Part shown: positions 12,248 to 53,843 of the stretch, one piece after another
How the letters are laid out: each line of letters begins with the position of its first letter
Numbering within the stretch: the first letter of the stretch is position 1
Assembly: GCF_018141525.1 (NCBI RefSeq)
Contig: NZ_CP064655.1
Span: 1,364,001 to 1,428,000, forward strand
DNA from: Miltoncostaea marina
Lineage (GTDB): Bacteria > Actinomycetota > Thermoleophilia > Miltoncostaeales > Miltoncostaeaceae
Length of the DNA: 64,000 bases
Reading direction: 5' to 3'
Notes under the pieces: model-generated
Databases searched by the model: none
What the model was told of the DNA's origin: nothing
Seen by the model: the letters and a program-made list of their open reading frames with translations, nothing else
Program-made: the position numbers and the translations under genes

Positions 12248-12280
12248 CGGGGGCCGGCGCGCCCCCGCGCGCCGGCCGTC
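12246..12280 (+). terminator. Terminator hairpin of ftsH
   Basis: Overlapping the stop codon, GACGG plus CCGGCGCGC (12246-12250 and 12254-12262) pairs with GCGCGCCGG plus CCGTC (12267-12280), giving a 14-base-pair stem with a three-base bulge and a C4 loop. No U-tract follows. The comEC promoter begins immediately afterwards. Confidence 0.55.
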
Positions 12281-30196: not shown

Positions 30197-30305
30197 CGCC
30201 GTCGATTCTAGCGCAACCGCGTCGTCGTCCGTAGTCGGTCGTTGTTTTCAATGAGTTGCTATAGTACGCCGAAGCAGCGTGACGGACGACGAGAGGGGAG
30301 TGGGC
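30197..30305. promoter_or_regulatory. Divergent fur / ferritin-like control region
   Basis: This 109-base gap contains the only AT-rich patch for kilobases. Minus-strand TAGAAT (30205-30210) serves fur. Plus-strand TATAGT (30260-30265) serves the ferritin-like gene, with a ~40-base leader holding AGGGGAG before its ATG. TTGTTTTCAA at 30242-30251 is an imperfect dyad immediately upstream of TATAGT and is a candidate site for the Fur-type repressor. Confidence 0.5.
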
Positions 30306-30803
30306 ATGGCCACGACGAGCAGGGTCGCGACCGGCATCCTGTCCGAGGCGCAGGCCGCCAAGCGCGCCGAGATCCTCGATCTCCTGCGCCAGGCGTACTG
30401 GATGGAGATGGAGACGGTGATGAGCTACCTCGCCAACGCCGAGAACCTCGACGGCGTGCGGGCGGAGGAGATCGCTGAGGCGCTGAGCGCCGACGTCGAG
30501 GAGGAGCTCGGCCACGCGCGGCGCTTCGCCGGGCGCATCAAGGAGCTGTACGGCACGCCCCCCGGCTCGCTCGAGTTCACCGCCGAGCAGACCTACCTGC
30601 AGCCGCGCGATGACGCGGCCGACGTGCGGGGCGTCATCGAGGGCGTGATCCAGGCCGAGACCGGCGCGATCGAGCACTACCTCCGCATCATCGAAGCGTG
30701 CGACGGCGTCGACTGGGCCACCCAGGACATGGTCATCGAGATCCTCCGCGACGAGGAGGGCCACCTCCGCCAGTTCGAGCGCTACCTGGCCGAGTACAGC
30801 TGA
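30306..30803 (+). CDS. Ferritin-like four-helix protein
   Basis: A 165-residue ferritin-superfamily protein, probably diiron. Metal-ligand patterns are Glu in WMEMETVMSYL (helix 1), EEELGHARRF (ExxH, helix 2), QAETGAIEHYL (ExxxxxH region, helix 3) and RDEEGHLRQFERYL (ExxH, helix 4). This resembles bacterioferritin or Dps-like DUF892/rubrerythrin-type proteins, lacking a rubredoxin tail. ATG 30306 is preferred over an upstream GTG because AGGGGAG is five bases before it. Divergence from a Fur regulator suggests iron storage or peroxide detoxification. Confidence 0.85.
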   Translation: MATTSRVATGILSEAQAAKRAEILDLLRQAYWMEMETVMSYLANAENLDGVRAEEIAEALSADVEEELGHARRFAGRIKELYGTPPGSLEFTAEQTYLQPRDDAADVRGVIEGVIQAETGAIEHYLRIIEACDGVDWATQDMVIEILRDEEGHLRQFERYLAEYS

Positions 30804-31069
30804 CGCTCCGCCCAGGCCGCCCGGCTCCCCCGGAGGGTCTGGCCTGCGTCGAACTGAGGCACGCCCCGGGCGCGCCGGCCGAATCGGCTCCGGCCTGGCG
30901 GCCGGGGCGCGCCGCGCGGCGAACTGGTCGCGATCCGTCCCGGACGACGTGATCGAGCAACGAGGTGGTCGTAGACACGACCGCCGAAGGCGGGAGCGTG
31001 CACAAACCGGCCACGAGGGCGCCGGGCACACCCCACGCGCACCACGGACGGATCCGTCGATGGGTTTTC
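30804..31069. other. Non-coding stretch after the ferritin-like gene
   Basis: I see no supportable gene in these 266 bases. Open frames exist on both strands but lack family similarity, ribosome binding sites and consistent codon bias. A perfect 12-base palindrome, GACGGATCCGTC, lies at 31047-31058, just before the hairpin cluster. Confidence 0.5.
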
Positions 31070-31166
31070 GGCGGCCCGCCCCGGCCGCAAGGCCGGTGCC
31101 GCCGTGTGCAAATCGCCCCGGCCAGGGGCGATTTGCCGCGTGACCCGGCCCGAAAGAGGCCGGGTC
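31070..31166 (+). ncRNA. Three consecutive hairpins, candidate structured RNA or terminator cluster
   Basis: Hairpin 1 has outer arms GGCGGC (31070-31075) and GCCGCC (31098-31103) and an inner stem CCGGCC/GGCCGG (31081-31096) closed by a GCAA tetraloop. Hairpin 2 is a perfect 12-base-pair stem GCAAATCGCCCC (31108-31119) with GGGGCGATTTGC (31125-31136) and a five-base loop. Hairpin 3 is GACCCGGCC (31142-31150) with GGCCGGGTC (31158-31166) and loop CGAAAGA. Spacing between them is only 4-5 bases. Either strand could be transcribed. The GNRA loop and stacked arrangement suggest RNA structure rather than chance palindromes. Confidence 0.45.
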
Positions 31167-31200
31167 CCCGCGTGAGGGGCACGCCGGTCGACAACGTGCC

Positions 31201-31673
31201 CAGCGCGAGCCGGCCCGCCAGGGCCGGATCCCGCCCGCGCTCAGGATCGGCCCCAGCCGAATCCGCACCGCGACCACCCGCCCAGCGCGAGCCGGCCCGC
31301 CAGGGCCGGGTCCCGCCCGCGCTCAGGATCGGCCCCAGCCGACCCGGTCTGTCGACGACCTCATCACGGGATAGGCCGGGTCCCGCCCGCGCACAGGATC
31401 GGCCCGGCCGACCCGGTCCGTCGACGACCTCGTCAAGCGGGGGCCGGGTCCCGCCCGCGCAGTGGATCGGCCCCAGCCGACCCGGTCCGTCGACGACCTC
31501 GTCACAGGACGAGCCGGCCCCCGCCCGCGCAATGGATCGGCCCCCGCCGACCCGGTCCGTCGACGACCCCGTCACGGGATGGCCGCGACCACCCACCCAG
31601 CGCGAGCCGGCCCGCCATCGCGGCGTCACGCCCGCGCAACGGATCGTCCCCGCCGAGCCGGTCCGTCGCCGCG
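31201..31673. repeat. Six-copy ~70-base direct repeat array
   Basis: The core GGATCGGCCCCAGCCGA, preceded by CCCGCCCGCGC and usually followed by CCCGGTCCGTCGACGACC, recurs at 31244, 31326, 31396, 31464, 31534 and 31641. The spacings are 82, 70, 68, 70 and 107. Because the period is not a multiple of three, any reading frame changes phase at each copy, arguing against coding. First, second and last copies also share an upstream block with CAGCGCGAGCCGGCCCGCCA. There is no CRISPR-like conserved repeat/variable spacer pattern. It lies between the 3' ends of two convergent genes. Confidence 0.7.
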
Positions 31674-32528
31674 CTACTCCCTCAAGAGCCGGCTCAGGCG
31701 GCGGTCGCGGTACCTGCGGCCGCCGGTCTGGCAGGCGGGGCAGTAGACGAGCTCGTACTCGGCGAAGCTGACGCGCTCGAGGAGGGTGCCGCAGCGCAGG
31801 CAGGGCTCGCCGTGGTGGCCGTGGACCGCGGTCAGCCGGGCCTCCCGGTTGGGCAGGTCGGTGGTGATGCGCTCGCGGGCGCGCTCGAGCGCCTGGGTCA
31901 GCACGGCGTCGGCGGCGCGGGCGAGCCGGGCGAGCTCGTCGTCGCCGAGGTCGCCGGCCCGGCCGAAGGGCGCGAGGCGGGCGGCCCACATGATGTCCGA
32001 GGCGTAGGCGCGCCCGATGCCGGCCACCCGACGGCCGTCGCGCAGCGCGGTGTGGAGCAGCGCGCCCGGCCCGCCCAGGGCGGCGCGCCAGCCGTCGGCC
32101 CCGAGCCCGATCGGCTCGGGGCCGAGGCGCGCCAGCGGGCGGTGGGCGGCGAGCCCCGCCGCGTCGAGCAGGTGCGCCGACGCGCGCCGGTGGGTGGAGA
32201 GCTCGCGCAGGCGCAGGGTCTCGCCGCCGCCCACGTCGAGGTCGAGCGCCGCCGTGCGGCCCGGCCGGCCGGCGCCCGCCGCCGCCAGCCCCAGCCGCCC
32301 GGCCTGCATCAGGTGGATGACGAGGGCCGGCCCGTCCTCGTGCTCCACGATCAGGATCTTGCCGCGCCGCCGCACGCCGGCGACGCGCCGGCCGACGAGG
32401 GCCTCCAGCGGGGGGTCGGCGGTCTTCAGCGTGGCCGGCTGGTGCACGCGCGCGCCCTCCACGACCCGGCCGGCCAGCGCGGAGGTCAGCCCCTCGGCGA
32501 GCGCCTGCAGCTCGGGCAGCTCAGGCAC
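31674..32528 (-). CDS. Fpg/Nei family DNA glycosylase
   Basis: A 284-residue bifunctional glycosylase/AP lyase that removes oxidised bases. After the GTG start, PELPELQ provides the catalytic N-terminal Pro and Glu. HLMQAGRL is the conserved mid-strand, GIGRAYASDIMWAARLAPF is the helix-two-turn-helix and the C-terminal zinc finger is CLRCG with YCPACQTGGR. The PELPELQ N-terminus and the finger fit Fpg-like proteins; the N-terminal ELQ rather than EVE is a divergent actinobacterial form. Substrate preference between 8-oxoG and oxidised pyrimidines cannot be told. Upstream is the divergent deoC transcription unit. Confidence 0.88.
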   Translation of the reverse strand: MPELPELQALAEGLTSALAGRVVEGARVHQPATLKTADPPLEALVGRRVAGVRRRGKILIVEHEDGPALVIHLMQAGRLGLAAAGAGRPGRTAALDLDVGGGETLRLRELSTHRRASAHLLDAAGLAAHRPLARLGPEPIGLGADGWRAALGGPGALLHTALRDGRRVAGIGRAYASDIMWAARLAPFGRAGDLGDDELARLARAADAVLTQALERARERITTDLPNREARLTAVHGHHGEPCLRCGTLLERVSFAEYELVYCPACQTGGRRYRDRRLSRLLRE

Positions 32529-53801: not shown

Positions 53802-53806
53802 GCCGC

Positions 53807-53840
53807 GCCCGCGCCGGCCCCCGCGGGGGCCGGCGCGGGC
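53807..53840. terminator. Bidirectional GC-only terminator
   Basis: A perfect 16-base arm pair, GCCCGCGCCGGCCCCC (53807-53822) and its complement (53825-53840), lies between two convergent genes, five bases after one stop and four before the other. There is no T-tract on either side. Confidence 0.6.
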
Positions 53841-53843
53841 GGA

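Follow-up and report, generated by a model that had tools for sequence, protein, structure and literature searches.

A probably genus-specific family of interspersed three-hairpin repeats with a preference for gene 3′ ends in Thermoleophilia

Introduction

REP, BIME and REPIN elements are multi-copy intergenic palindromes that lie mainly downstream of genes, between convergent or co-directional neighbours; REP elements are thought to act as RNA elements and often form inverted pairs (PMC3733652). The pneumococcal elements BOX, RUP and SPRITE show the same bias towards convergent genes, which their authors read as tolerance of insertion (PMC3049150). Hairpins with compensatory stem changes also occur between convergent genes as the bidirectional terminators of Bacillus cereus (PMC5381666), and stem-loop sequence families, repeated genome-wide between genes with a common fold, have been described in 40 genomes (PMC2267715).

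The locus described here lies in a window of 64,000 nucleotides (the whole stretch of DNA that was analysed) and shares features with each of these systems. Like REP, BIME and REPIN elements, it is a multi-copy intergenic palindrome behind genes, with copies in inverted pairs; like BOX, RUP and SPRITE of Streptococcus pneumoniae, it is modular, with a variable tandem unit and no transposase gene of its own, the likeness to BOX being one of organization only and taken from the published description (PMC3049150); like the B. cereus terminators, it places hairpins with compensatory stem changes between convergent genes; and like the stem-loop families it is repeated genome-wide in intergenic positions with a common fold. 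We consider that it probably belongs to a genus-specific non-coding family of interspersed structured repeats, akin to REP/BIME and BOX, which would fold at the 3′ ends of transcripts. The family appears to be new as far as the literature and Rfam were searched and is an apparently undescribed structured repeat family for Thermoleophilia; its general kind is already known. Its main interest lies in the rewriting of the stems together with a consistent placement at gene ends.

Organization of the locus

The features of the locus are summarized in Table 1. A first-pass annotation, made from the sequence, had reported three hairpins spaced by 4–5 bases between convergent genes, with A–T pairs in two of the stems, a feature that it judged improbable by chance at this GC content. 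Re-reading of the sequence gave exact positions for all three, with spacers of 4 nt between hairpins 1 and 2 and of 5 nt between hairpins 2 and 3, and RNAfold reproduced all three on the + strand with a z score of −4.2, a fold equalled in 0 of 200 shuffles (z = −4.7 on the − strand). When a 200-nt stretch was dinucleotide-shuffled 2000 times, four of the shuffled sequences had a perfect stem of at least 12 bp and none had two separate perfect stems of at least 9 bp. Hairpin 2 contains four A–T pairs and hairpin 3 contains one. The three hairpins are not a product of chance, and the flanking genes do converge, the ferritin-like gene (+) stopping at 30803 and the Fpg-type gene (−) at 31674, so that this part of the annotation was confirmed throughout. 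The loop of hairpin 3 can also be read as C-GAAA-G with a bulged A, and the possible outer extension of this hairpin was left out of the structure that was counted below.

What the first reading overlooked is that a multi-copy repeat cassette takes up practically all of the 870 bp between the two genes. Four ~70-bp tandem units lie at window positions 31303–31582. Intrinsic-terminator-like sites (a G+C-rich hairpin followed by a U-run) were absent from both strands of window positions 30700–31800, and no sigma-70-type promoter consensus was found around the element, in a host whose promoters may differ from that consensus.

Table 1. Coordinates of the repeat locus and its neighbours in the window
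Feature	Position	Strand	Remarks
Left neighbour, ferritin-like/rubrerythrin gene	30279..30803	+	3′ end toward element
Left palindrome module of larger cassette	30805..31064	+	common to other cassette copies
Repeat core, ~110 bp	31065..31176 (G000:C1:1395065-1395176)	+	match to covariance model R1
Hairpin 1	31070..31103	+	sequence and RNAfold
Hairpin 1 outer stem, 6 bp GGCGGC/GCCGCC	31070-31075/31098-31103	+	
Hairpin 1 bulge, 5 nt CCGCC	31076-31080	+	
Hairpin 1 inner stem, 6 bp CCGGCC/GGCCGG	31081-31086/31091-31096	+	
Hairpin 1 loop GCAA	31087-31090	+	
Hairpin 1 single unpaired T	31097	+	
Hairpin 2, perfect 12-bp stem, loop GGCCA	31108..31136	+	sequence and RNAfold
Hairpin 3, perfect 9-bp stem, loop CGAAAGA	31142..31166	+	sequence and RNAfold
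Possible outer extension of hairpin 3, CGCG (31137-31140) with CGCG (31169-31172)	31137..31172	+	sequence
Right cassette part, related ~70-bp tandem repeat units	31189..31671	+	
Right neighbour, Fpg-type DNA glycosylase gene	31674..32528	-	3′ end toward element

Copies in the genome of the window

The genome of the window (G000) consists of one contig of 3,370,274 bases, in which the window occupies positions 1364001–1428000. In a DNA search of this genome, 22 copies matched most of the length of the query, and several further copies were divergent. The covariance model R1, built from nine diverse copies (109 positions, 33 pairs), detected 28 matches at E ≤ 0.1, and 26 of these had E ≤ 4.4e-9; a weak match at 2770876 (E 0.08) was rejected as a copy. 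All-against-all BLAST showed 20 of the 26 copies to be embedded in a larger mosaic cassette, with a shared stretch that runs from 129–534 bp before the start of the core to 218–744 bp after it. The left part of the cassette is a mosaic of palindromes and the right part contains a variable number of ~70-bp units; one such unit has 76 matches in G000, all located beside cores as judged by position. Four divergent copies (1920600, 2593300, 288139 and 3159494) are alike only over the ~110-bp core, copy 1744252 forms the final unit in a short array, and copy 1020030 shares the core and ~97 bp to its left. Since some copies share little beyond it, the ~110-bp core stands as a separate unit.

Six of the 20 cassette copies are clustered within ~80 kb (G000 2711203–2790401). 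Three diverged three-hairpin units, two of them weak matches, stand in tandem at G000 1744024–1744360 (L023 2987–3323), adjoining a dxs-like gene (named by eye). The core-only copy at G000 3159494–3159603 (L058 1501–1610) lies between co-directional purF-like and purM-like genes (also named by eye) and may sit within an operon.

Conserved pairing and rewritten stems

Pairing was counted in two alignments. In A1, a MAFFT alignment of nine hand-picked G000 copies that was not fitted to the model, 96.3% of the cells are paired, and 16 of the 33 pairs show two-sided change and none one-sided change only. A3 contains 19 copies from three genomes (11 rows drawn from the 26 copies of G000 and eight rows from G002 and G003), leaving out near-identical G000 copies, the weaker or incomplete matches L060, L063, L069, L070, L075 and L076, and additional units from the 1744xxx array. 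It was fitted to R1, so that its counts lean toward structure: 97.0% of the cells are paired, with two-sided change in 24 of the 33 pairs (11 of 12 in hairpin 2 and seven of nine in hairpin 3) and one-sided change in just one cell. Two-sided change was observed in 128 cells of A3 compared with a shuffled mean of 37, and only 36–45% of the cells are paired when the pairing partners are slid. The check for compensatory changes put forward with the first-pass annotation thus gave a strong result, and the pairing is conserved in relatives, whose copies form part of A3.

The architecture of hairpin 1 recurs in copies from G000–G003 with altered outer stems. Judged by eye, its five-base bulge of the type C-N-K-Y-C and its single T are kept across copies, its short loop mostly has G first and A last, the loop of hairpin 2 has G first and mostly A last, and hairpin 3 mostly reads C-GNNA-G plus one bulged base, A or T. 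Exceptions are the loops GCAC (one copy from G003) and GGCCG (one copy from G000) and a differently built hairpin 1 in two or three copies from G002. On the strand read here, loops that start with G and end with A (G..A loops) occur in 17 of 38 distinct hairpins compared with 11 of 241 elsewhere in the window (Fisher p = 4e-10); the corresponding values for T..C loops are four of 38 and 12 of 241 (p = 0.25).

Of the 627 pair cells in A3, 606 are Watson–Crick and ten are mismatches that would be G–U on neither strand. Fifteen of the 33 extra pair types are G–C/C–G flips, which cannot pass through G–U, and whole stem arms switch as blocks between copies. In the B. cereus terminators AU–GC switches stand at 79% and occur mostly through G–U (PMC5381666), whereas the present stems show few transition-type switches and almost no G–U pairs. 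Base composition accounts for part of this; the rest could be due to arm-to-arm copying or to a requirement that both strands fold. That the stems are rewritten as near-perfect Watson–Crick blocks suggests that they are copied as DNA or that both strands are used, and the scarcity of G–U despite turnover at most stem positions allows arm-to-arm copying of DNA to be tested against selection on both strands. The working strand is undecided: the enrichment of G..A loops favours the + strand, whereas the wobble counts lean the opposite way, with two G–U cells on the + strand and nine that would be G–U on the − strand, several of which represent one inherited change. A choice of strand from the wobble pairs was rejected.

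Distribution among related genomes

The covariance search of related genomes that had been proposed at the outset returned R1 matches in three of 40 relatives, and these three belong to the same genus. Judged from Fpg relatives, the family is Miltoncostaeaceae in the class Thermoleophilia, and the window probably comes from Miltoncostaea itself. A second model, R2, found the element in four of 399 genomes of the class, representing one of 128 genera of Thermoleophilia; this search scored nine candidates per genome and could miss weak or diverged copies elsewhere. The family thus seems to be confined to the genus within the genomes searched. Related multi-copy elements are present in the three other genomes of the genus (G001, G002 and G003), and G001 and G002 have multi-copy subfamilies of their own; that of G001 keeps hairpin 1, has a different second hairpin and comprises six copies at 90–100% identity. 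A hairpin-1 pattern gave 28 matches compared with five for the reversed control in G000, 14 compared with four in G001 and six compared with five in G002, and did not exceed the control in G003 (three compared with four) or in the 57 other genomes (pooled by eye). Since a copy lies within 500 bp of a contig end in eight of the ten G002/G003 contigs with R1 matches, the copy numbers for these two genomes are lower bounds. The weak match L125 (18.5 bits) was rejected as a copy.

Carriage by plasmids, phages or viruses was rejected, as the element had no match in plasmids and phages and the exact pattern, applied to hairpin 2 only, had none in viral contigs. In G001, two inverted copies ~2.7 kb apart (1986822–1989661; L111) enclose ordinary-looking genes. 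An autonomous version with a transposase between these copies was considered and rejected; from a reading of the open reading frames, we take the enclosed genes to have ordinary identities.

Placement at gene 3′ ends and turnover of sites

Genes around the copies were called with a home-made codon-position gene caller. The 26 copies in G000 comprise 11 between convergent genes (in ten regions), 14 between co-directional genes and one between divergent genes; the gene pairs of the window itself comprise six convergent, 47 co-directional and five divergent. Convergent regions thus make up ten of 25 regions with copies compared with six of 58 in the window (Fisher p = 0.0045). The neighbouring gene ends are 3′ ends in 56 of 77 cases over the four genomes (p = 8e-5), counted by hand for sides with a called neighbour only, several G002 and G003 copies being at contig ends, and in 35 of 52 cases in G000 alone (p = 0.018). 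In ten core-only copies (five from G000 and five from G001) the stop codon of the right-hand gene lies about −19 to +26 nt from the end of the core. Inverted pairs of copies fill convergent gaps in G000 (1019647/1020030) and in G002 (L113).

The sites differ between species. The sole neighbour protein common to G000 and G001 sites is that of an RNase J-like gene, and two sites are common to G002 and G003. Two convergent junctions are filled in G002 and lack the insert in G001. The first, L113, contains two copies in ~560 bp in G002 compared with 9 bp left by the aligned genes of G001; G000 has ~1.1 kb of other, coding-looking sequence there. The second, L120, measures 346 bp in G002 compared with 12 bp in G001, and in G000 the aligned pieces are separated by 63 bp compared with 609 in the query; L120 is most simply explained by a gain in the G002/G003 line. 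Since a filled site is always compared here with an insert-free site of another species, loss elsewhere may have contributed. At the junction of the window, the place of the repeat is taken in G001 by a small gene and a palindrome of ~40 bp; owing to this extra gene the junction was rejected as a clean pre-insertion site, the repeat being simply absent. No target duplications, which together with terminal inverted repeats from an IS in the same genome characterize MITEs, are visible when insert-free and filled sites are compared, the species being too far apart to show them.

Comparison with known repeat systems

Membership in a known RNA family was rejected: Rfam gave no match at the gathering threshold in the window and none over the element at E ≤ 1 in ten loci. 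In the loose sense, the element is a REP-like interspersed palindromic repeat, being multi-copy, palindromic, extragenic and biased towards 3′ ends. Membership in the REP/REPIN group with RAYT was rejected, as there is neither a fixed tag nor a Y1 transposase. GTAG is found in two and CGTC in 18 of the 26 G000 copies (core ±10), and the sequences after hairpin 1 (GTGTGC, GTCCGC, GTCTGC, GTTTGC and GGTTGC) show by eye that the flank positions are not constant. Y1 (IS200/IS605-type) transposases (PF01797) were found in none of the four genomes of the genus, by a method that detects them in five of 14 controls. CGTC-tagged REPs are without a dedicated transposase (PMC3733652), so that this absence bears on GTAG REPs.

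Unlike REP, BIME and REPIN elements, which measure 20–40 bp and carry a GTAG or CGTC tag, the repeat is a ~110-bp three-hairpin unit, and its copies are embedded in 0.5–1.2-kb cassettes in a genus in which no RAYT-type transposase was found. In contrast to BOX, with its boxA/boxB(n)/boxC modules and a very different host, the repeat has a 70-bp array behind its core and a palindrome module on the left; from bidirectional intrinsic terminators it differs in having no U-tract, three hairpins, conserved bulges and loops and a dispersed repeat family. It is not among the stem-loop families in the part of PMC2267715 available to us.

Possible origin and function

Computation establishes a multi-copy core, a fold that is maintained across species with rewritten stems, a preference for 3′ ends and convergent junctions, and sites that differ between species. 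The element probably carries no gene and would have spread, now or once, through machinery supplied in trans or recombination between copies, and would persist where insertion does little harm, directly behind stop codons. Read-through from a neighbouring gene would place three hairpins, mostly with G..A loops, in 3′ untranslated RNA, where they could hinder 3′ exonucleases or polymerase; a terminator or mRNA/RNA-protecting role is plausible. In the species of the window, one lineage would have gained the left palindrome module and the ~70-bp array and multiplied as a cassette of ~0.5–1.2 kb. Against this reading, no mobilizing enzyme was identified, Y1 transposases are absent and no target duplications were seen. 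The RNase J-like site common to G000 and G001 counts against a mobile repeat, and the tight placement at stop codons and the near-perfect stems could point to a selected function rather than tolerance.

Selection is central to one alternative, in which the repeat is kept as a bidirectional terminator or mRNA 3′-end stabilizer for convergent genes at ~76% G+C, where U-tracts are scarce, and its spread is secondary. The stop codons close to the core in the core-only copies, the inverted pairs in convergent gaps of G000 and G002, the scarcity of G–U pairs (expected if both strands must fold) and the simple strong palindromes in other convergent gaps (window 53806–53841; the G001 equivalent of the junction of the window) favour it. 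However, neither side has a U-tract, terminator-like sites were not found, the repeat is missing from many convergent gaps in the genus, and the same convergent bias in BOX, RUP and SPRITE has been read as tolerance (PMC3049150); we regard this alternative as unlikely. The conserved form could instead be DNA: a protein (a nucleoid protein or an enzyme of transposition or copying) would read cruciforms or single-stranded hairpins, whose arms would be rewritten from each other during replication. The 606 Watson–Crick cells with only two G–U on the + strand, the 15 G–C/C–G flips and the switching of whole arms as blocks agree with this, as do the enriched G..A loops, which are very stable in DNA too; high G+C alone, however, disfavours A–U and G–U states, no candidate enzyme was found and G..A loops suit RNA equally, and the proposal seems doubtful to us. 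More speculative is multiplication by a non-RAYT system that recognizes the fold through its loops and bulges and rewrites the two arms of each stem together, leaving the sequence free and the shape inherited, with the array as the standard filling of convergent junctions in each species.

The first-pass annotation saw room for an independent structured RNA. Conserved pairing, compensatory change and the absence of a credible Rfam match uphold its structured character; its independence is not supported. The compact stable fold, conserved loops and intergenic position would suit an independent trans-acting small RNA from the locus, but with ~26 copies in G000, most of them within larger cassettes and mostly at gene 3′ ends, with no terminator-like site and no promoter-like site (by the sigma-70 consensus, from which that of the host may differ), and with sites that turn over between species, we consider it very improbable; a single structured-RNA gene was rejected as the main reading by the copy number. 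Convincing covariation can stem from a repeat family, a warning for annotation, as an RNA gene is not implied by covariation alone. As an interspersed repeat family, by contrast, the ~26 natural variants of one fold in one genome offer a means to probe the effects of three hairpins at 3′ ends on RNA.

Other hairpins in the window

A perfect 16-bp G+C palindrome with the loop CGCG (window 53806–53841) fills a 42-bp convergent gap and is a candidate for a simple bidirectional terminator without a U-tract. A perfect 13-bp hairpin is located within the Fpg-type gene (window 32095–32125), and a perfect 11-bp hairpin lies a few bases past a predicted stop codon (window 12252–12277).
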